This document shows positions 7,927-30,362 of a DNA stretch of 30,362 bases, piece by piece. The DNA is from Nitrospiraceae bacterium (GTDB lineage: Bacteria > Nitrospirota > Nitrospiria > Nitrospirales > UBA2166). The notes under the pieces were generated by a model. The model saw nothing but the letters and a program-made list of their open reading frames with translations, made no database searches and was not told the origin of the DNA. Both the position numbers and the translations under genes were made by a program. Positions within the stretch are counted from its first letter, which is position 1. Each line of letters starts with the position of its first letter. The stretch spans positions 1-30,362 of the forward strand of contig PBSN01000022.1 of assembly GCA_002726235.1 (NCBI GenBank), given 5' to 3'.

Positions 7927-8757
7927 TCAAAAAAATCCGAAAAAATCCTTCAAGGAAAAAATAACTCGCCAAGTGATCAGTGGCGTAAAATCCCCATCGG
8001 ATCTTCGCTCCACCCCGTGTCCAAGTTGGACAGTATACTGTTCTGCAAAATGAATATGCACTTGCGGCATGATCATCGCCTCCTGGATCCCGGAGCTCTG
8101 GAAGGAAAAATTGGTTTCAAGGCCAGAAACGAGCCAGGAGGTGGTGTTATGAAAGAGGCTGAAATTGTACAATCCCGACACTCCCTTAGCATCGCGATCT
8201 ATTCCCTTAGTATCGCCATCTACTCCCTCAATTTTACCACCTTCGCTCTTATCATTTTGCTGCACTCCCATCATGTGCATCATACTCCACTCCCTGTTTA
8301 ACCGGTGACCAACCAAGTAGAGGGCAGTACTTTTAAACGTCTTCTTGTGGGTGTCGAGTTTCCCAAAATATTGCCATCCATGAACCAAGTGTCCATCAAC
8401 GGGTGTGCCGAAGAGACCTTGGAAGGCAACCTTATGCGCATTTGTCGCGTCATCTTTTAAGATTCGCTCGTATTCGATGCCGAATCCGTCTAAAACGGCA
8501 AGCTCAAATTCTGGGGCGATATCCAGTTTCCCTCCTTCACTGCCCATTGACTGCTGGAACAGGGAGTTTATCTCGAAGTCGCCACCTACGGAGCCAAGAG
8601 GTCGGACTAAGTCAAACACCATGGGCTCTGGAATGCGAGGAAATTTATCCTCATGCACACCAACGGCAAAGGCTGGAGACCCACCAATCCACTGCATCAC
8701 CACAAGAAAAAGCACTGTACGCAAAACCCCAATCGCCACGGTTATAACTACAGTCAC
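7927..8757 (-). CDS. Putative outer-membrane or exported beta-rich protein, unknown family
   Basis: A 276-residue protein with an N-terminal hydrophobic signal segment ending near SPAFA (about residue 31). The remainder alternates polar and hydrophobic residues and ends in an aromatic residue (GFF), as beta-barrel outer-membrane proteins often do. Segments such as 'FELAVLDGFGIEYERIL' and 'YTVQLGHGVERRSDGDFTPLITWRVIF' suggest antiparallel strands. A Gly/Asp/Lys-rich loop near residues 178-193 is built of 7-residue imperfect repeats encoded by 21-bp DNA repeats. No family name is offered. The start is uncertain: GTG at 8757 lacks a ribosome binding site, and a TTG 11 codons later would give a more compact signal peptide. 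The cupin gene follows. Confidence 0.7.
   Translation of the reverse strand: MTVVITVAIGVLRTVLFLVVMQWIGGSPAFAVGVHEDKFPRIPEPMVFDLVRPLGSVGGDFEINSLFQQSMGSEGGKLDIAPEFELAVLDGFGIEYERILKDDATNAHKVAFQGLFGTPVDGHLVHGWQYFGKLDTHKKTFKSTALYLVGHRLNREWSMMHMMGVQQNDKSEGGKIEGVDGDTKGIDRDAKGVSGLYNFSLFHNTTSWLVSGLETNFSFQSSGIQEAMIMPQVHIHFAEQYTVQLGHGVERRSDGDFTPLITWRVIFSLKDFFGFF
8182..8223. repeat. Two tandem 21-bp repeats inside the exported-protein gene
   Basis: Two copies of a 21-bp unit beginning TCCCTTAG (8182-8202 and 8203-8223) differ at only three positions, and a third partial copy (TCCCTCAATTTT) follows. They encode an exposed G-x-D-x-D-x-K type loop. The unit is a multiple of three, so copy-number change would alter loop length without a frameshift. 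Confidence 0.9.
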
Positions 8758-17405: not shown

Positions 17406-18854
17406 CTAATACCACCGCAACTGCAGCATCATTTGTGCTTGATCGTTATTGTAGGTATCCATCGCGGCGTCACGGCCACTGAGCCCGTCACGATTGCGAA
17501 TTTCGTAGTTCATCATGATTTTTGATTGGATGCCACCCGGTTGATTAATGAGGTAGTAATTCACTCCAAGGGTGAGCCGTGTGTATGTATTGTTAGCCAC
17601 GTTATTGGGATCCAGCCATTCATACCGGACGGTCGGCTCCCACTGATTTTCAAATTTATACTTGGCATACAGATAGCCAGTCGTCCGCTGGGCGCCCGCC
17701 GTCGAGGCAAATCCGGTTACATCTGTTGCCCCTCGACTCACCGCTCCGGGCGCATCGTGCCCGGTGATGTACTCGCCTTGTAACCACAAACCGTTGTGGT
17801 CGGCAATGGGGCTGGACGAGGTTTTCATATCGGTTCCGGGTGTCCAGCGAAAATCAAGTCCCATTCGGTCGTATTTGCCGTCCCCTCGGCCGAAGACGTT
17901 ATTATTTATAGCCGTTGAATGCCCGAACATGGTGGAGGCACTCACCCAGAAGCCTTTAAAAGGATGATATCGGATGCGCCCGATAAAGTCTTTTTGTGAA
18001 TTGTTATCAAATGAACCGCCAAATTTACCATTGACACTGTTCCCATTCATTATGAGCGCATTGTATTCAAGGTAGTTGTCTGGGCCAAACCGTACCGGAG
18101 TACCGATGAATTGCAAATACTGATCACGTTCTTGGATGAACTCGACAGCGTCTGCGCCACTTCCAACGCCGGCGAGATAGGGAAGCTCAATAAAGTCCAG
18201 CAACCCTGCAGAGGTATCAGCTGAAATCCCAAACGGAATACGCCATTGGCCAATGCGGACAGTGTGAACGTATGGAGCCATCCCTTTCAAAGACCCTGTC
18301 GGAGCAAGATCAATGAAGGCTTCACGCATGAGCTGCGTGTTGGTCGGGTCCGCTTTTTCACCCGTTGGTGAAGTTGGCCGCCGAAGACCTTGACTGGTGA
18401 AGTTGGCCAAGATGTGCCATTTTTTCACCTGAATCGGCCCAAAATCACCTAAGCTTCCCCGTAGCGTGAACTCTGCCCGCTGAATGTTAAAATCATTGGT
18501 GCCAACGCCTTCCGGAGTATCTCGCTGGCTATCGCGGTAGCGAATTTGGAGCGAATTCAATCCAAACGAGAGTTTGGGCAAATTCACCGGCGTGGACCGG
18601 TCGAACGTGGGAAGTTTGCTCACCTGGGTTTTCCAGGCTTTCAGTTCTTCAATCGCTTGTTCTTGCTCTTGCTCTTGCTCTTGCGCACTTGTCCCTTGCT
18701 GGTCTTTAAGTGTCTGCAGTTCGTTCTCCGTGATGAGTCCCTTTGCATGAAAGATGTCCTCGCCCTCCGCGATGACATAGCCGGGGCTCAGTATCAGTGC
18801 AAAAAATGGAACGATCAAAAACAGTTGGTGCATTACTTCATCCTTTCTCTTCAT
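17406..18854 (-). CDS. OprO/P-like porin with a Glu-Gln repeat linker
   Basis: A 482-residue porin. The signal peptide ends near VIAEGED. A short helix (IFHAKGLITENELQTLKDQ) then gives way to an (EQ)n linker at residues 58-66, which leads into a helix (AIEELKAWKTQVSKL) and the barrel (LSFGLNSLQIRYRDSQRD). The family pattern is seen in FNIQRAEFTLRGSLGDFGPIQVKKWHILANFTS and VRIGQWRIPFGIS. The C-terminus is QLRWY. The start may be ATG 18854 or ATG 18833; the second has AAAGGA 7 bp before it and gives a more usual signal peptide, while the first adds a basic start MKRKDEV. The linker is encoded by hexanucleotide repeats, so length variants could occur. It heads the minus-strand outer-membrane series. 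Confidence 0.88.
   Translation of the reverse strand: MKRKDEVMHQLFLIVPFFALILSPGYVIAEGEDIFHAKGLITENELQTLKDQQGTSAQEQEQEQEQAIEELKAWKTQVSKLPTFDRSTPVNLPKLSFGLNSLQIRYRDSQRDTPEGVGTNDFNIQRAEFTLRGSLGDFGPIQVKKWHILANFTSQGLRRPTSPTGEKADPTNTQLMREAFIDLAPTGSLKGMAPYVHTVRIGQWRIPFGISADTSAGLLDFIELPYLAGVGSGADAVEFIQERDQYLQFIGTPVRFGPDNYLEYNALIMNGNSVNGKFGGSFDNNSQKDFIGRIRYHPFKGFWVSASTMFGHSTAINNNVFGRGDGKYDRMGLDFRWTPGTDMKTSSSPIADHNGLWLQGEYITGHDAPGAVSRGATDVTGFASTAGAQRTTGYLYAKYKFENQWEPTVRYEWLDPNNVANNTYTRLTLGVNYYLINQPGGIQSKIMMNYEIRNRDGLSGRDAAMDTYNNDQAQMMLQLRWY
18661..18684. repeat. Hexanucleotide tract (TCTTGC)4 in a porin gene
   Basis: Four perfect TCTTGC units, with a diverged copy on the left side, encode Glu-Gln dipeptides in the porin linker. 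A change in copy number would add or remove two residues per unit and stay in frame. Confidence 0.93.
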
Positions 18855-20261: not shown

Positions 20262-21077
20262 ATGAGGAGTATGGTGTTAGCGCTAATGATGGTGTTCGTA
20301 GGTGTATCTGTTCATGCAGAGAAGTCTGCTGTCGCAGACTGGGGATACCAGGGAAAGAGTGGTCCCGAACACTGGGGAAGTCTTGGAGCATCGTTTTCCC
20401 TTTGCAACACAGGGATGGCTCAATCACCAATCGACATGGTAAGCACTCATTTGATTGAGTTGGATGACATCAAATTTTCCTATGTCGACGCCCCTTTCCA
20501 CGTGATTAACAATGGCCACACACTAGAAGAGATTGAGCCGATTTCCCCTATGGTGAACTCTCGATATCCTCAGCATGGTCAGACCGCAAACCATTTCTCC
20601 AATGATAGTACTATTACATTTGATGGTGACCTGTACCTGCTTGAGCAATTCCATTTTCATACCCCGAGTGAGCATACCCTGAATCATCAACATTTTGCGA
20701 TGGAAATGCACCTTGTCCATCACAATGCACGGCATGAATCGGCAGTCATCGCGGTATTCATGAAAGAGGGAAAACACAATCAGGTATTTCAAGAATTTTT
20801 AGACCATGCCCCCACCCAAGTAGGTGGCGTTATAGACGACCATGAGCATACACTAAACCCCAAACATCTCTTGCCGAAGAATCACTCCTATTATCGATAC
20901 TTTGGATCGTTTACCACTCCTCCCTGCTCTGAGGGCGTCATTTGGGCTATCATGCACGATCCCATTGAGATCTCGACCGAACAGATTCGTCAGTTCACAC
21001 GTCTTTTGGGCCACACCAATATACGCCCAACGCAACCTCTTCATAAGCGATTTGTCTTGGAATCGAAGCCTAACTAG
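20262..21077 (+). CDS. Periplasmic alpha-class carbonic anhydrase
   Basis: The enzyme interconverts CO2 and bicarbonate at a zinc ion. The signal peptide ends near VHAEK (about residue 19). Zinc ligands are His131 and His133 in QFHFHTPSEH and His150 in MEMHLVHHN. His86 (NNGHT) is the counterpart of the proton-shuttle His64 of human CA II. Thr218-Thr219 (TTPPC) match Thr199-Thr200. Cys48 and Cys222 would form the disulfide seen in bacterial alpha-CAs. The spacing from His86 to His131 is 45 residues, against about 30 in CA II, because of an extra segment (about 91-117) rich in Pro, Asn and His. GGAAGGAG precedes the ATG. As an exported enzyme upstream of dabA it fits inorganic-carbon supply. 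Confidence 0.96.
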   Translation: MRSMVLALMMVFVGVSVHAEKSAVADWGYQGKSGPEHWGSLGASFSLCNTGMAQSPIDMVSTHLIELDDIKFSYVDAPFHVINNGHTLEEIEPISPMVNSRYPQHGQTANHFSNDSTITFDGDLYLLEQFHFHTPSEHTLNHQHFAMEMHLVHHNARHESAVIAVFMKEGKHNQVFQEFLDHAPTQVGGVIDDHEHTLNPKHLLPKNHSYYRYFGSFTTPPCSEGVIWAIMHDPIEISTEQIRQFTRLLGHTNIRPTQPLHKRFVLESKPN

Positions 21078-21140: not shown

Positions 21141-21205
21141 AGTCAATCTTCTCCTTTCGTGATTGGTGGTGTGCCTCTTTACGTTTTAATTTGACGGAGG
21201 ACGAT

Positions 21206-22096
21206 ATGCGTATAGTTGTTGGAATAAGTAGCGACGATCAGACATTTTCTCTCCTGCGCGTAGCCGCTCAACTCTATCCCCAGGCGGCATTCACATTGGT
21301 ACACGCGATCGATCACGGGCTCACACGATATCCAACTCTCGGAACCAAGGCTCGGGATAAGGTGCACGAGGAAATGTCTCCTCTCCTAGACGCCGGGCAC
21401 ACACTCCTAGAGAAGGCGGCAAAGTCTATCCCGGCTGACCTAAACATCACGCCTGAGACCGCGTGCAGCCTTGGAAATCCATCACGTCTGATTATCAAGG
21501 CTGCGGAGAAGAAAGCAGCTGACTTGATTATCATTGGCTCACGTGAGCACCAGCACGAGGAGAGAGAGTTCACACTCGGCTCCACCTCCCACCAAACCGC
21601 AAGCCATGCTCCTTGCGCGACATTGACCATTAAAAACACCCAGATAACTCAGATCCGTCGCGCATTGATCGCCGTTAAATCGCCTGACGACAGCGCGCAA
21701 ATTTATCGCTGGCTTGCGTCTAACCCATTTCATAGCCCAGTCGAGGTGACTATACTGCATGTTGTGCCAGCACTTCACTCGTATCTCGCGAATCACGCAC
21801 TGGCTCAGTACGATCAATGGCATGACTTTTTACATAATGATTCGATGGGGTCGGGACAAGATTTCGTGGATAACGTCTCAGCAATGTTCACTAAACCACC
21901 AGCAAGCAACCATTACAAGGCGCACGGACAGATTGCCAATGGCGATCCTGCAGACATCATTATCAAGGAAGCAGCCCAGTATGACCTGGTGATTGTAGGA
22001 TCCTCTGGTGCCTTGAGCGCAATTCGGTTCCTCTACGGAAGCGTCGTACAGAAAGTCATCCATCGTATCTCCATTCCCATCATGATCACCGGATAG
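21206..22096 (+). CDS. Tandem-domain universal stress protein (UspA family)
   Basis: A 296-residue cytoplasmic protein of two Usp domains (about 1-142 and 147-296). The second domain carries an intact ATP-binding pattern G-2x-G-9x-G-S (GSSG...YGSVVQ). In the first the equivalent stretch (GSREHQHEEREFTLGST) lacks the second Gly, so it probably does not bind nucleotide in the same way. Tandem Usps are common regulators or chaperone-like proteins in stress and energy limitation. The ATG at 21206 has an ideal GGAGG 5 bp upstream. It lies between carbonic anhydrase and the carbon-uptake genes, all on the plus strand, so it may share their regulation. Confidence 0.93.
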   Translation: MRIVVGISSDDQTFSLLRVAAQLYPQAAFTLVHAIDHGLTRYPTLGTKARDKVHEEMSPLLDAGHTLLEKAAKSIPADLNITPETACSLGNPSRLIIKAAEKKAADLIIIGSREHQHEEREFTLGSTSHQTASHAPCATLTIKNTQITQIRRALIAVKSPDDSAQIYRWLASNPFHSPVEVTILHVVPALHSYLANHALAQYDQWHDFLHNDSMGSGQDFVDNVSAMFTKPPASNHYKAHGQIANGDPADIIIKEAAQYDLVIVGSSGALSAIRFLYGSVVQKVIHRISIPIMITG

Positions 22097-23538: not shown

Positions 23539-26500
23539 GTGAGTACGGCGCAGACTTCCGAACATCGCACAGTAGGTGCAAACGCAGGAGCCGTCTCCTC
23601 TTCTATGCTAACCGAGGCAGAGTGCGAGAAGCTTCGAGTTCTAGTATCACAGGCGGCCGAGGTCATTTCCCCAAACTGGCCAATGCGAACGTTTGCTTAT
23701 CGCAATTCCTTGATGGGGTTTGAGCATCTGCACTTTCATGACGCGATCTCGCACGCGAAGGACCTGCTGGGAGGAGAAGGCTATCTTTCGATTGCAGAGT
23801 ATCGCGCGTGCTACGCCGCAGGCCGGATTTCCGAGAAAGAACTTCTGGACGCTCTGCGCTCGAGGGAACCAACGCTTGCAACGCAGGACAGCATTCGTGT
23901 TGGAAAGCAAAGTTTTCACCCTGAAACAATTCTTCTGCCTCACTTTGTATACGGTATCGATTCGCTCAATCCCAAATTGTTGCAGTGGCAATTAACGGAG
24001 GGAAATGCTTCTCGCCGTATCCGTCCTGATGTTCCCCAGACCATCAAGGATCAGCTGCTAGCATACGACGAGGAAGAGTTCTACATCCATTTGCTGTGGT
24101 CCAAGAGCTTGGAAGCACTTGCGATCTCTGAAGATGGATTGCCTGAATCCTACAAACATGCCGCCACTGAAGACACGGCGCACTCGACCCACCAGAGCAT
24201 CCGTACCGCAGCTGAGATCCTCGACGATCTTATCAACTCTGATCTGAACCGAGATATCAATGAACACATGGTCAAATGGTGCGCGGCATTTGCAGATGAA
24301 GGCATGGCAGATTGGTCAATGCCTTCACGTACAGACGGATTTTATGCCGCTTGGAAAAATATTGCTCGCCGCGAAGCATTCCGGTGGACCCTGGGAAGTT
24401 CTTCCTCAGCACAAGGAATGCGGACGCTCCCTGAACGCCCTGAAGACGCTATCGCGTTAAGCTTTGCCCTCCTGAGAATCCCCGAGCAACATCAGGAACA
24501 GTACCTACGTCGGCACCTCAGCCAGCTACCAGGCTGGACAGGCTATATTCGCTGGAGATCAAAGAATCCTGATTATCCTGAACAAGGCCGTCACCCAATT
24601 GATCCGCTGGAATACCTGGCCGTACGAATGTTTTACGAGGTTGAGCTGGCCAAAATAGTTTGTCAGCGCACATGGGGCATTAACCCAGAACTTCCCGATC
24701 TCATCGCACGTGCCCAATCCAAGAAGCTGGAGAACTCCGACGCTCATGCTCATGACTTGTACACAGAAGCGGTTTGCCAGGACGCTTGGCGTCTCTTCCA
24801 TCTGGCACAGTTCCTCGATATTCACCCGGAAGATCTTCAAACGTTGTCGCCAGAAGATGCTAGATCACTGCTATCCTGGCTCAACCGATTTCCGACTGAC
24901 GTACTCCGCCCTATCTGGCACGAAGCCTACGAAGCACAGTATCGAAATTCCCTGCTTACGCGACTGATTAGTCATCGTCAGAGACCTGGATACAACGAGA
25001 GCACCCAACATCCGAGACCGCGAGTGAACGCCGTATTCTGTATCGACGCTCGCTCCGAGTCTTTTCGTCGCCACTTGGAAGCCCAAGGTGGATATGCCAC
25101 GATCGGGTTCGCTGGATTCTTCGGGACGCCAATCTACTACCGGCTACTCGATCGAGAAGAAGAGTTGCTCCTTTGTCCTGTCCTGATCAAACCAAAATAC
25201 GAGGTGAGGGAGGGCCCGCGGTGGAATCAAGACCCCGAGGTACTCGAGTACATGCTTGGAGACCAGTGGAGTCGCTTTGGCCACCACCTCTTCCACCAAA
25301 TCAAATCAAACCCTACAAGTTCCTATCTCACATTCGACCTGTTTGGATTTGTGTTTGGGCTGGTAATGCTGGGAAAGACCTTGCTCCTAAAGCCCTATGA
25401 CCTTATTCGTGAATGGTTTCGTCGCTGGCTCGTTCCCCCGGTCGCAACCCAAATCCCAGTAGAGAAATTCCCTGAAGAAGAGCGTGAAGCCTTCATTGCT
25501 GGCAATCAACGAGCTCTTATCTCCGAGGCGTTCGAACACCGATTTAGCCACCGGCACGACGTGGTTGCACTCCCACAGAGCATCCTTGAAGCATTTCGCC
25601 TCGCTGCCCTTGGGGAGCCCGAAGATCGCAGTTATCGTACGACGCGACAAATTGCAGCCTCCGAACAACTAGGTCTTTCGGTAGACGAAGAGCAAGATTT
25701 TCTAGAGGAGCTCCGATCCGATCACGGGATTAACTCCCTTACCCACCAAGCACAGCTCAAATACTTTGCCGAACGCAGATTCTCCCCGGCAGAACAAGCA
25801 GCAGTAGTCGAAAACTCGCTCCGTGTTATGTGCCTAACCAAAGGATTCGCGCGATTGGTTCTTCTCTGCGCCCATGGAAGCACTACGGAGAACAATCCGT
25901 ATGCCTCCGCGTACCATTGTGGGGCATGTGGCGGAAACCCGGGGGGGCCGACTGCCAGAGTCCTGGCGTCCCTGGCCAACAGAGTGTCCGTCCGTCAAGA
26001 GCTATGGGATCTGGGGATCGAAATTCCCAACGACACGTGGTTCATTGCCGGTGAACACAATACAACTACGGATCGTGTCGCCTTGTTTGATTTAGAGGAA
26101 GTTCCCGAGGGACACCGACCGGATTTGCTCCAGTTGCAAAAGGATCTGGAAGCGGCTTGGCGCCGAAATACCCAAGAGCGCTGCAATCGTCTACCAAAAG
26201 CCCCCAGTCGATCACCATCAACGGCCACTGCCCGCCACACATGGAACTCGAGCCGTGACTGGGCTCAAGTCAGACCGGAGTGGGGACTCTCGAGCAACGC
26301 CGCTTTTGTGATTGGACGGCGCTCTCTCACGCAGGGCCTCACGCTTGACGGTCGATCCTTTCTTCACAATTACGACCAATCGCAAGACACAACAGGCAGG
26401 ACGCTGGAAACTATCATGACCGCTCCGTTGGTAGTTGTGCAAACAATCAACTCGCAATATTTTTTCTCTGCGACGGACACGTGGGCGTACGGATCCGGAA

Positions 26501-26820
26501 CCAAAGTCTTGCATAACGTCGTTAGTGGAGTCGGGGTGATGCTCGGAAGACACAGTGATCTACAAACAGGGTTTCCCCTACAATCCATGACAACGGGGGC
26601 CTCTCGATTTCATGAGCCACTTCGTATCCTTGCAATCATCGAGGCAGACACGGAAAGAATTTCCTCCATCATTTCCCGTCATGAGGTACTTCAGAGATTT
26701 TTCACCAATGAGTGGATGTACCTTGTCTCTTGCTGTCCTACAACAGGAACATTTTCTCAATATCACCCGGAAGGAACCTGGAAAATGATTGCATCGCCAA
26801 TTAGCCAGGACAAGAGCTAA
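23539..26820 (+). CDS. dabA: DabA, inorganic carbon transporter subunit (DUF2309)
   Basis: DabA is a beta-carbonic-anhydrase-like zinc protein on the cytoplasmic side of the membrane. With DabB it drives vectorial CO2 hydration to bicarbonate using an ion gradient. The zinc/active-site set is intact: Cys501 and Asp503 in CIDARSE, His779 in LCAHGS and Cys794 in YHCGACGG. The His-Cys spacing of 15 equals that of Halothiobacillus DabA (His524, Cys539). Other family blocks are ISPNWPMRTFAYRNSLMGFE at the N-terminus, and DWAQVRPEWGL, LHNYDQSQD and TWAYGSGTK near the C-terminus. At 1093 residues it is of the long form. It starts with GTG after AGGAAA. Its stop is 11 bp before the NuoL-like gene. 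Confidence 0.96.
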   Translation: MSTAQTSEHRTVGANAGAVSSSMLTEAECEKLRVLVSQAAEVISPNWPMRTFAYRNSLMGFEHLHFHDAISHAKDLLGGEGYLSIAEYRACYAAGRISEKELLDALRSREPTLATQDSIRVGKQSFHPETILLPHFVYGIDSLNPKLLQWQLTEGNASRRIRPDVPQTIKDQLLAYDEEEFYIHLLWSKSLEALAISEDGLPESYKHAATEDTAHSTHQSIRTAAEILDDLINSDLNRDINEHMVKWCAAFADEGMADWSMPSRTDGFYAAWKNIARREAFRWTLGSSSSAQGMRTLPERPEDAIALSFALLRIPEQHQEQYLRRHLSQLPGWTGYIRWRSKNPDYPEQGRHPIDPLEYLAVRMFYEVELAKIVCQRTWGINPELPDLIARAQSKKLENSDAHAHDLYTEAVCQDAWRLFHLAQFLDIHPEDLQTLSPEDARSLLSWLNRFPTDVLRPIWHEAYEAQYRNSLLTRLISHRQRPGYNESTQHPRPRVNAVFCIDARSESFRRHLEAQGGYATIGFAGFFGTPIYYRLLDREEELLLCPVLIKPKYEVREGPRWNQDPEVLEYMLGDQWSRFGHHLFHQIKSNPTSSYLTFDLFGFVFGLVMLGKTLLLKPYDLIREWFRRWLVPPVATQIPVEKFPEEEREAFIAGNQRALISEAFEHRFSHRHDVVALPQSILEAFRLAALGEPEDRSYRTTRQIAASEQLGLSVDEEQDFLEELRSDHGINSLTHQAQLKYFAERRFSPAEQAAVVENSLRVMCLTKGFARLVLLCAHGSTTENNPYASAYHCGACGGNPGGPTARVLASLANRVSVRQELWDLGIEIPNDTWFIAGEHNTTTDRVALFDLEEVPEGHRPDLLQLQKDLEAAWRRNTQERCNRLPKAPSRSPSTATARHTWNSSRDWAQVRPEWGLSSNAAFVIGRRSLTQGLTLDGRSFLHNYDQSQDTTGRTLETIMTAPLVVVQTINSQYFFSATDTWAYGSGTKVLHNVVSGVGVMLGRHSDLQTGFPLQSMTTGASRFHEPLRILAIIEADTERISSIISRHEVLQRFFTNEWMYLVSCCPTTGTFSQYHPEGTWKMIASPISQDKS

Positions 26821-26831
26821 CTAGACGCATC

Positions 26832-29045
26832 ATGGTAGACTTCGCGTACATTCTTATCCCGATTCTCCCCCTTGCGGCTTTCTTGATCATTGCGCTGGGT
26901 AGTCGATGGCTGGGCGAGGCAAGCCATCGGTTGGCTATCCCAGCAGTCTCCACTTCATTCATTCTTTCGATTCTTGCCTGTATTGACGTGTACCAAAACG
27001 GCCCTAGGTCGATCCCGCTATATTCCCTTATCAGCGAAGGCGCCTTGACCATCAACGTGAATCTCTATGTCGACGCGATCACAGCAATGCTGCTGCTGCT
27101 TATCACTGGAGTGAGCAGTCTCGTTCACGTCTTTTCCAGCCGGTACATGCAAGCGGATCCGCGTTACGCCCGTTTCTTTGCTGTAATCGCACTCTTTACT
27201 TCTGCCATGATCATGTTAGTCATGAGCGGAAATCTCCTGATTTTATTCATGTTCTGGGAGATCATGGGCCTGTGTTCTTACTTGCTAATTTCCCATTGGT
27301 CTCGCCGTCCGTCAGCCTGCAACGCCGCAACAAAAGCCTTTCTGGTGAATGCGGTGGCAGATATCGGCCTCGTGTTTGGAATATACCTGACGTGGGATAC
27401 TTTCGGCACTCTTGATATTCAGACGATCCTGTCCACTGTATCAAACTACACCGATCAGACAGTCAACCTCCTTGGATTTATTGGTCTCGAGTGGCAAGTC
27501 CCTATCCTCTCCATCATTGCATTACTGCTGCTCATGGGCCCTATTGGAAAGTCCGCGCAGATTCCGCTTCACGTCTGGCTTCCATTTGCAATGGAAGCTC
27601 CGACTCCGGTGTCTGCACTCATCCACGCGGCAACTATGGTCAACGCAGGTGTGTATCTCCTGATCCGGATGGGACCACTTTATCTTTTGACTCCGTCCAT
27701 CATGACTGTAGTGGCGATCGTCGGTGGTTTGACCGCCCTCTTTGCCGCTGTGGTGGCTCTCACCCAATTTGATATCAAGCGCATTCTGGCGTATTCAACA
27801 ATCAGCCAACTCGGGTTTATGGTTCTCGCGTGTGGGGTCGGCGCTTATGGCGCCGCTATTTTTCATCTCCTCACCCATGGAGCCATGAAGAGTTTTCTGT
27901 TTCTCTCCGCAGGCAACGCTCTTGAAAGTCTCGGGAAGTCTCACCATGGCACCCACGAAGGCACCCACAGCCCCCCCCGTACACAAAACACACGGCACCT
28001 CTTTCCTCTCTACGCCGGATCATTTATCCTGGCGTTGATCCCTCCCCTCATTATTTTCTCTGGTCCTTATGAACAGCTGTGGACCGTCTCGGGGCTTGTC
28101 CAAGCCCAAGTCCTTTTCTGGATCCTTGGGTTGGCAACCGTGTTTTTCGCGGGCTTCTATTTGTTTCAGGGAATACTAGAACTCTTCAAGCCGCCCGGTC
28201 GCATCGACTGGTACAAGGGATTTCGTCTAGGCATGCTGCGACCCCGCATTTTTTCGGCCTCGCTGCTTCTTGGACTCATTCCCATGACGGCCGGGCTAGC
28301 TGTTTTTCTCATCCTCGTCTGGAATGGTTTTCTCGAATTCATCTCTCCAGCTCTCCCAGTGGGAGATTTGGATCATGCACCAACCCCGACCGCACACATG
28401 TTCTCTCTCGACTACGGGTTGAGATTTCCTGGGACAACCCATGCTGAGCTAGTACCCTCGACCGCGACATCGCCACTCATGAGCATGAGCATCGGCTTTG
28501 GTGTCGCAATAGCCGGCTGGGCGACAGCGTTCTATGCCTATATGTTCCCACCACGCCTCTCACCCCGATGGAAAGAATACAAAAAAACGCTCTATGTATT
28601 CTTTCTGAACAAAGGCTACTTCGACGAAATGTATGAGGTCGTATTCATTCGCCCCAGCTTGCGGCTTACCTCATGGCTCTGGCGAGTTGTCGATAGAGGG
28701 ATTGACCAAACATACATGGCAGCAGCCGGCACCTCCGCCCAGACGGCCCGTTGGCTCTGGCAAGTTGTCGATAGAGGGATTGACCAAACATACATGGCAG
28801 CAGCCGGCACCTCCGCCCATATAGCCCGCTCACTATGGAAAGGGGTAGATGTAAATCTCATCGACCGACCTGCCAACAAGTTTGCAACCATATCATTTGA
28901 AATCGCAACGAAAATTTCGAAAGTCTTTTCCGTTAAGAAAGACGCTGAACCTAAGCTATCCCGAATTCTTTTGGTGTTTCTTGGTGTGCTTCTTGTTCTG
29001 GTCGTGGTCATTGAGTTCTTGTTCTCACAGATCATGAAAGGATGA
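26832..29045 (+). CDS. DabB/NuoL-like proton-translocating antiporter subunit
   Basis: A 737-residue membrane protein of the Mrp/NuoL family, the ion channel partner of DabA. Charged residues of the proton path are present: Glu143 (FWEIMG), Asp177, Lys240 (GPIGKSAQIPLHVWLP) and Lys353 (THGAMKSFLFL). Unlike the short DabB of Halothiobacillus it has a long NuoL-type C-terminus: TM15 (SIGFGVAIAGWATAFYAYMF), the YFDEMYEVVFIRP segment, an amphipathic stretch equivalent to the lateral helix, and a final TM (LLVFLGVLLVLVVVIEFLF). Residues 615-640 and 641-666 are a nearly identical tandem duplication, followed by a third diverged copy. A His-rich linker (HHGTHEGTH) follows Lys353. It overlaps the next gene by ATGA. 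Confidence 0.92.
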   Translation: MVDFAYILIPILPLAAFLIIALGSRWLGEASHRLAIPAVSTSFILSILACIDVYQNGPRSIPLYSLISEGALTINVNLYVDAITAMLLLLITGVSSLVHVFSSRYMQADPRYARFFAVIALFTSAMIMLVMSGNLLILFMFWEIMGLCSYLLISHWSRRPSACNAATKAFLVNAVADIGLVFGIYLTWDTFGTLDIQTILSTVSNYTDQTVNLLGFIGLEWQVPILSIIALLLLMGPIGKSAQIPLHVWLPFAMEAPTPVSALIHAATMVNAGVYLLIRMGPLYLLTPSIMTVVAIVGGLTALFAAVVALTQFDIKRILAYSTISQLGFMVLACGVGAYGAAIFHLLTHGAMKSFLFLSAGNALESLGKSHHGTHEGTHSPPRTQNTRHLFPLYAGSFILALIPPLIIFSGPYEQLWTVSGLVQAQVLFWILGLATVFFAGFYLFQGILELFKPPGRIDWYKGFRLGMLRPRIFSASLLLGLIPMTAGLAVFLILVWNGFLEFISPALPVGDLDHAPTPTAHMFSLDYGLRFPGTTHAELVPSTATSPLMSMSIGFGVAIAGWATAFYAYMFPPRLSPRWKEYKKTLYVFFLNKGYFDEMYEVVFIRPSLRLTSWLWRVVDRGIDQTYMAAAGTSAQTARWLWQVVDRGIDQTYMAAAGTSAHIARSLWKGVDVNLIDRPANKFATISFEIATKISKVFSVKKDAEPKLSRILLVFLGVLLVLVVVIEFLFSQIMKG
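28674..28829 (+). repeat. 78-bp tandem duplication in the NuoL-like gene
   Basis: Two adjacent 78-bp units (28674-28751 and 28752-28829) match at 73 of 78 positions, with 57 consecutive identical bases. Each encodes a 26-residue unit beginning W-L-W-x-V-V-D-R-G-I-D. A third related segment, S-L-W-K-G-V-D, follows at the same spacing from residue 667. Confidence 0.98.
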
Positions 29046-30362
29046 ACATGGATAGTTTGGTCTCCCATCTGGTGAGTTGGATTGTGTTGACCCCCTTCAT
29101 TGGGATGGTCATCATCGGATTCCTGCGCCATGCTGAAGTCATTCGCTGGGCGACTCTCGCTACCACCTTGCTCGTACTCGGCCTTACCCTGGGCTTGTGG
29201 GCTGGATTTGATCACACCGCTACAGGAATGCAGTTTGTCGACCGCGTAGCACTAGGAATTTTCTCCTTCCAATACGCAGTTGGCGTGGACGGCATCAGCT
29301 TACCACTGATTCTGCTCACCGCATTCCTTATCCCTTTGTGCGTCCTAGGATCCTGGACAGGTATCAAGGAGAACGTAAAGGCCTTCATGTTGCTCATCCT
29401 TCTGGTGGAAGGAGCCGTGGCTGGCGTATTCACTGCTCTGGACACGTTCCTTTTTTTCCTCTTCTGGGAAATCACGATGATTCCCATGTATTTCATGATC
29501 GCGCTATGGGGAGGCCCCAACCGAATTCAAGCAGCAGTCAAGTTCCTCCTGTTCAGCGTGGCGGGAAGTCTATTACTCAACCTTGGGATTGAGGCTCTAC
29601 ATCACGAAGGAGGAAATACATACGATGTTGTGGCTCTGACCCAGGTAGAATTTTCCCCCGAGGTTCAGTTTTGGATTTTCCTGGCACTGTTTGTGGGATT
29701 CGCGATTAAAGTACCCATGCTTCTCGTCCATGGTTGGATTGCCGATGCGCACGGTGAGGCACCAACGGCAGGCAGCGTTATCCTCTCTGGACTCTTGCTC
29801 AAGATGGGAGCTTACGGATTTCTTCGCTTCTGTCTCCCGATCTTTCCCGAGACCTCGGTAGCATTCGCCCCGTTCATCCAGTGGCTCTCCGTCCTAGCTA
29901 TTCTCTACGGCGGCGCCATGGCCCTTGCACAACATGATTTCAAACGCCTTATCGCCTATTCCTCCATCGCCCATATGGGATTCGTCACCTTGGGTATTTT
30001 TGGGTTCAACAATCAAAGCGTCCAAGGCGCCGTCCTTCAGATGGTCAATCACGGAATTACCACCGGTGCCCTGTTCCTCATAGCTGGCATGTTGTACGAC
30101 CGCACGCATGACCGGACGATCGACAATTATGGAGGGTTGCATCAGGTGATGCCGAGATTCGTGGTGGTTTTAGGCATTTTTGTCGTGGCAGCCTTTGGAT
30201 TGCCGGGAACCGGAAATTTCATCGGAGAGTTCCTCGTTTTGGCCGGAACTCTCTCGCATAGTTACCTCATGGTCCTGCTTGTCTTGGCAGGAATTGTGCT
30301 TGGCGCCGCCTACATGCTCGGGATGTTTCAACGGATGGCACTGGGCCCTGTCTCCCCTCAGA
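29042..30362 (+). CDS. NuoM-like proton-translocating subunit (3' end outside window)
   Basis: The first 440 codons of a NuoM-type antiporter subunit, open to the window edge. The ATG overlaps the NuoL-like stop codon (ATGA), so the two are translationally coupled. Family motifs: Glu143 (FLFFLFWEITMIPMYFMI), Lys223 (FAIKVPMLLVHGWIADAHGEAPTAGS), Lys254 (LLLKMGAYGFLRF), QHDFKRLIAYSSIAHMGF, MVNHGITTGALFLIAGMLYDR, and FGLPGTGNFIGEFL. In NuoM the second motif normally reads xHTWLPDAH; here it is VHGWIADAH. With no other complex I subunits beside it, and dabA upstream, it is likely part of a DabA-NuoL-NuoM carbon pump, although an alternative complex I fragment cannot be excluded without the sequence to the right. 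Confidence 0.95.
   Translation, partial: MNMDSLVSHLVSWIVLTPFIGMVIIGFLRHAEVIRWATLATTLLVLGLTLGLWAGFDHTATGMQFVDRVALGIFSFQYAVGVDGISLPLILLTAFLIPLCVLGSWTGIKENVKAFMLLILLVEGAVAGVFTALDTFLFFLFWEITMIPMYFMIALWGGPNRIQAAVKFLLFSVAGSLLLNLGIEALHHEGGNTYDVVALTQVEFSPEVQFWIFLALFVGFAIKVPMLLVHGWIADAHGEAPTAGSVILSGLLLKMGAYGFLRFCLPIFPETSVAFAPFIQWLSVLAILYGGAMALAQHDFKRLIAYSSIAHMGFVTLGIFGFNNQSVQGAVLQMVNHGITTGALFLIAGMLYDRTHDRTIDNYGGLHQVMPRFVVVLGIFVVAAFGLPGTGNFIGEFLVLAGTLSHSYLMVLLVLAGIVLGAAYMLGMFQRMALGPVSPQ

Follow-up and report, generated by a model that had tools for sequence, protein, structure and literature searches.

In this work, we ask why a NuoL-like protein, encoded next to DabA in a Nitrospiraceae genome, carries near-identical repeats within one segment, and what such a lengthened segment may serve. 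The window, that is the whole stretch of 30,362 nucleotides analyzed, is contig C22 of a genome assembled in 27 contigs, and features at its 3' end an operon composed of dabA, a nuoL-like gene and nuoM, truncated inside the last of them (Table 1).

Table 1. Features of the dabA locus and of the region upstream of it, in window coordinates.
Feature	Position	Strand	Description
Alpha-carbonic anhydrase, upstream	20262..21077	+	PF00194 E=5.5e-44
UspA-like protein	21191..22096	+	Named from universal-stress appearance; homologue directly downstream of nuoM in Nitrospira operons
dabA	23539..26820	+	1093 aa; Pfam PF10070 DabA E=5e-247, full length
nuoL-like DabA partner	26832..29045	+	737 aa; TIGR01974 NDH_I_L 486.7 bits, cut-off 407.5; PF00361, PF00662
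HL region, YFDEMY to TM16 start	28617..28961	+	116 residues to TM16, versus 58-60 in the canonical complex I NuoL of the order; alignment, length
HL unit 1	28674..28751	+	Residues 615-640
HL unit 2	28752..28829	+	Residues 641-666; 73/78 identical to unit 1; identical 57-bp core at 28763-28819
HL unit 3	28830..28910	+	Residues 667-693 (S667-T693); LWxxxDVxxIDRP; kept in all orthologues (alignment)
TM16 anchor, after the lateral helix	28962..29042	+	Hydropathy, alignment; sole part with pLDDT above 70 in the segment model
nuoM copy A	29042..30362	+	Truncated at contig end; TIGR01972 502.8 bits
550-bp tract	29813..30362	+	100% identical to copy B (C15:1091-1640, L014); remainder of both genes 55-95% identical in 60-bp steps

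The dabA locus and its second nuoM

The operon continues on a second contig, C15, the start of which coincides with the end of the window (C15:1-59 and 30304-30362, an exact 59-bp overlap). This contig completes nuoM copy A in frame, with a stop at C15:245, and contains a second gene, nuoM copy B (C15:320-1828, 83-84% amino acid identity to copy A), followed by a SulP-like gene. The two copies share an identical tract of 550 bp, while being far less similar elsewhere, which indicates that the pair is recombining: the tract reflects recent gene conversion or unequal recombination. The assembly therefore only gives a lower limit, of two nuoM genes.

The nuoL-like product scores above the NDH_I_L profile cut-off (TIGR01974) and contains, as judged by alignment and hydropathy, a lateral helix (HL) segment followed by TM16, which places it among NuoL proteins. 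Its neighbor is a DabA protein according to Pfam (PF10070), but the locus departs from a DAB complex having a single short DabB, with a short HL and without NuoM, the partner being a 737-aa NuoL-type protein accompanied by two nuoM genes. Nor does it belong to a redox complex I operon: no nuo redox genes were seen around dabA-nuoL-nuoM-nuoM and the SulP-like gene that follows. With the 2M type of complex I it shares the adjoining second NuoM gene and an HL insertion of about 26 residues, relative to one-NuoM relatives.

The alpha-carbonic anhydrase encoded upstream is consistent with an inorganic-carbon locus. Two other short repeats lie elsewhere in the window: a 21-bp tandem repeat (2.3 copies, at 8180-8228) within ORF 7927-8757, and a hexamer repeat (18656-18684), coding for a stretch of EQ close to the N-terminus of ORF 17406-18854.

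The repeated lateral helix module

The original prediction had assigned two tandem 78-bp units to the lateral helix in a NuoL-type protein, and both points are confirmed: the units lie in frame within the nuoL-like ORF (TRF score 285), encode residues 615-666, and fall in HL, after the YxDExY motif and before TM16, when aligned with NuoL relatives, among them complex I NuoLs from the same order. Adjacent matches of 60-99 nt elsewhere in the ORF reach at most 51% identity, versus 94% for units 1 and 2, which excludes chance as the source of the repeat. No further occurrence of the 78-bp repeat was found in a search of the whole-genome contigs.

In alignments, the repeat unit matches LWKxVDVxxIDG, the canonical HL sequence, and its consensus, obtained from 55 units of DabA-Mrp relatives, is WLWRVVDxRGIDRxVxGIGxxSVGxAR; the 78-bp unit encodes the canonical HL module. 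Since canonical NuoL carries the module once (LWKRVDVAIIDGAVNGIARG), unit 3 of the window, which is diverged (SLWKGVDVNLID versus WLWRVVDRGID), represents the ordinary one, and units 1 and 2 are additions. A third, diverged unit had indeed been foreseen; it is present, but rather than being extra it corresponds to the single HL module of every NuoL.

The five differences between units 1 and 2 fall at unit positions 11, 69, 71, 72 and 78 (clustering p = 0.006). They are clustered outside the identical core, so that two origins are equally possible: a brand-new duplication, or an older unit homogenised by recombination. The prediction of a young last duplication is thus retained as far as the youth of the event is concerned, while recent homogenisation fits the data equally well. 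That the assembly doubled one unit is, in contrast, extremely improbable. The genome is fragmented, but the copies differ at five sites, their identical core is shorter than the 59-bp overlap between contigs, and the module occurs in one or two copies in orthologues, and in three or four in other genomes.

A straight-helix calculation, in which a 27-residue unit makes half a turn too much, shows the hydrophobic face flipping from unit to unit, so that HL is probably made up of successive rods and interrupted once in each unit. An AlphaFold model of the isolated HL segment (pLDDT 51) features helical rods broken at residues 622-625, 648-652 and 672-679, all three breaks falling at the D..ID motif; both this model and that of the full protein, based on a two-row alignment (pLDDT 33), are too poor for helix placement. 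These low-confidence predictions might suit repeats forming a disordered or cytoplasmic insert outside HL. Such a reading is very doubtful, given the alignment of the unit with the canonical HL sequence and the regular breaks, one per unit, of the rods predicted, at low confidence, for the segment.

HL modules and nuoM genes across orthologous operons

A few Nitrospira-like genomes from this order, and one Methylococcaceae genome bin (L079), contain DabA orthologues with 66-72% identity; a wider search of contigs yielded L079 only, and no more were found in 369 genomes of its class. Five intact operons (G257, G361, G301, G316 and G300) contain one HL unit and one nuoM, followed by usp (UspA-like) and sulP. 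Two HL units and two nuoM genes are found in L079, three units and at least two nuoM genes in the window operon. In G358, which carries two units, the contig ends within nuoM and has exactly 127 bp in common with the contig that completes the gene; this is what a collapsed second nuoM would give, and fits such a gene without proving it. G238 has one unit and a nuoM split between contigs: this break might have pointed to a second nuoM, but was not taken as such, since dabA is broken likewise in the same assembly.

Lateral-helix length co-varies with nuoM number in these orthologous operons (Fisher p = 0.036 with G238 and 0.048 without it, relatedness being ignored, with two or three independent changes). 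A longer arm, reaching an extra subunit or DabA, was part of the original prediction, and is plausible: the longer helix does accompany an extra nuoM in orthologues, and a second nuoM lies past the window end, while contact of the third module with NuoM or DabA is hypothetical.

Two complex I clusters of the window genome show the rule independently. In the first (C3), containing one NuoM and NuoN, the upstream subunit has a stretch of 42 residues after ISEAYRT; in the second (C17), containing two NuoM and NuoN, 68 residues are found at the same site, exactly 26 more. Hence, one NuoM goes with a short helix and two with a helix 26 residues longer. Both clusters (L184 and L013) contain MrpD-like subunits and resemble Complex_I_3 of Manganitrophaceae.

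In a tree of the unconverted part of nuoM, some forks of which are weakly supported, copy A falls with the first copy of L079 and with the nuoM of four single-copy genomes; copy B lies close to that of G316 and G358. Single-copy genomes, all with one HL unit, thus have an A-type nuoM in four cases and a B-type one in G316; the tree suggests that the nuoM duplication is ancestral, one copy having been lost at least twice. The G316 operon (L146) is itself likely a recombinant, the NuoL core grouping with one-unit Nitrospira-like genomes, and the C-terminus and nuoM resembling those of G358.

Length steps among relatives and exceptions

HL length was measured in two ways, between common anchors and to TM16. 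On common anchors, HL spans 23-24 residues in MrpA, which has one antiporter neighbor (MrpD). Two neighbors (M, N) go with 51 residues in NuoL of the Nitrospirales complex I and with 47 in that of E. coli, and three (M, M, N) with 76 in 2M complex I NuoL. Lengths step by about 27 residues among relatives, and DabA-linked NuoLs are longer than the 2M ones. Measured to TM16, HL is 58-60 residues long in canonical NuoL, 84-86 in 2M, and 113-114 or 141-142 in the DabA-Mrp type; within the window clade it takes 61-67 residues in four one-unit orthologues, 86-89 in those with two units, and 116 in the window. Two further one-unit orthologues measure 79-81, their HL region being interrupted by a stretch of about 14-20 non-repeat residues. 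Among DabA-linked NuoLs, arrays of 2-4 units are both old and recurrent.

By HL length, each DabA-linked clade lies at least one unit above the prediction from its antiporter-gene count. This excess would agree with a longer HL reaching DabA, and not a further NuoM, as would the finger of DabA2 inserted into its membrane partner (PMC13144422). We consider such an arrangement unlikely: DabB of the DAB2 complex binds DabA directly, and yet has a short HL, at residues 499-527 (PMC13144422), and the one-unit orthologues, for all the similarity of their DabA, lack a long HL.

A strict rule, by which unit number equals NuoM gene number, was tried and rejected: it fails in the paralogous operons dabA-mrpEFG-mbhDE-mnhB-mrpC-mrpD-nuoL-nuoM, where three or four HL units are found with the same genes, two antiporter-like neighbors being encoded. 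Such operons were observed in Nitrospirales (L045-L059, L148 and L149), and their gene content raises the possibility that they encode a DabA-Mrp-NuoLM supercomplex. Two close relatives, L051 with four units and L058 with three, have identical gene content, and L051 underwent a separate young unit duplication (95.1% DNA identity). Unit gain is thus recurrent, and may precede gene gain or occur without it.

These exceptions are what would be expected from near-neutral drift in repeat number, in which the array grows and shrinks by recombination, and the 26 added residues rest on the membrane or bulge out as a loop, without recruiting a further subunit. The third unit of the window, whose third partner is hypothetical, the single-unit difference between L051 and L058, the second independent duplication in L051 and the non-repeat inserts of the two one-unit orthologues can all be read in this way. 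The register, however, is constantly about 26-27 residues, the WLWxxVDxxxID motif is kept over many units, and drift does not predict that module number matches nuoM number, as it does both among the orthologues and between the two complex I clusters; it is therefore regarded as a doubtful explanation.

A proposed modular brace

The interpretation we hold to be probable is that a young module duplication, or homogenisation, occurred in the NuoL of a DabA complex, and that HL would be a modular brace, its length following the number of antiporter-like subunits. In the 78-bp event, one 26-residue HL module would have been duplicated in tandem, or homogenised by recombination, in a NuoL-type subunit presumably belonging to a DabA membrane complex encoded by dabA-nuoL-nuoM-nuoM. 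As a helix, the module would measure about 39 A (26 x 1.5 A), taken as near the spacing of one antiporter-like subunit. In Mrp, HL links the TM7 helices of successive antiporter-like subunits (PMC7419157); here, it could act as a brace, with one module per antiporter-like subunit lined up behind NuoL. Modules would thus physically span the NuoM subunits, and more PMF-driven channels would couple to one DabA. The third module of the window would serve a further position, either a third NuoM hidden by the assembly or DabA. A counterpoint to one module per NuoM is that the window shows three units and two visible nuoM copies: the newest module could be partnered by a third NuoM that the assembly has collapsed, by DabA, or by nothing.

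A bolder version of the brace, which we put forward tentatively, is that HL works as a tape measure, each module of 26-27 residues docking one antiporter-like subunit, and modules and nuoM genes being amplified and lost together by recombination. The operon would then be just past the step from two to three modules, and would have one channel position more than any examined orthologue, filled either by a third NuoM, its gene collapsed during assembly, or by a second copy of one NuoM.

Relation to known systems

Insertions of 26 residues are known in NuoL of the Nitrospira 2M complex I and in MrpD2 of Complex_I_3 (PMC9040806). The 2M complex I (Chadwick et al. 2018, via PMC9040806 and PMC6606698) is similar in having an HL insertion of about 26 residues along with one extra NuoM; there, however, the insert is a single diverged stretch within a redox complex, while the window features an array of three repeat units in a DabA operon without redox subunits. 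Complex_I_3 of Candidatus Manganitrophaceae (PMC9040806) combines the insertion in MrpD2 with two NuoM, and is similar to the C3/C17 pair of the window genome; it differs from the window operon in being a complex I, without DabA. The 2M insertion being already known, what is new is its occurrence in a DabA complex, with visible repeats.

DabA lies beside a NuoL homologue also in DAB2 (DabA-DabB; PMC13144422) and in the YbcC-NuoL operons of COGNAT, clade C of which already has DabA upstream of NuoL, with NuoM and SulP (PMC5700660). DabB2 of DAB2, in contrast, is a 551-aa protein with a short HL and without NuoM (PMC13144422), while the window partner is a full NuoL, with TM16, a tripled HL module and two NuoM. 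Finally, the Nitrospira Mrp cluster with NuoL/NuoM-like genes (PMC7784846) is apparently of the same kind as L045-L059, in which the NuoL homologue has three or four 27-residue units, and differs from the window operon by including mrpB-G and mrpD. The Mrp-type cluster is closely preceded by dabA in many genomes, which the passages of PMC7784846 consulted do not mention.

These observations bear on how the proton-pumping arm of complex I relatives gets its length, and hence on how their ion stoichiometry is set. NuoLs with one to four recognizable helix modules, together with the one or two NuoM genes of the orthologous operons, constitute a natural series, in which this question is directly testable by adding or deleting a module. 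The series further suggests that CO2-hydrating DabA complexes may be powered through more than a single proton channel.
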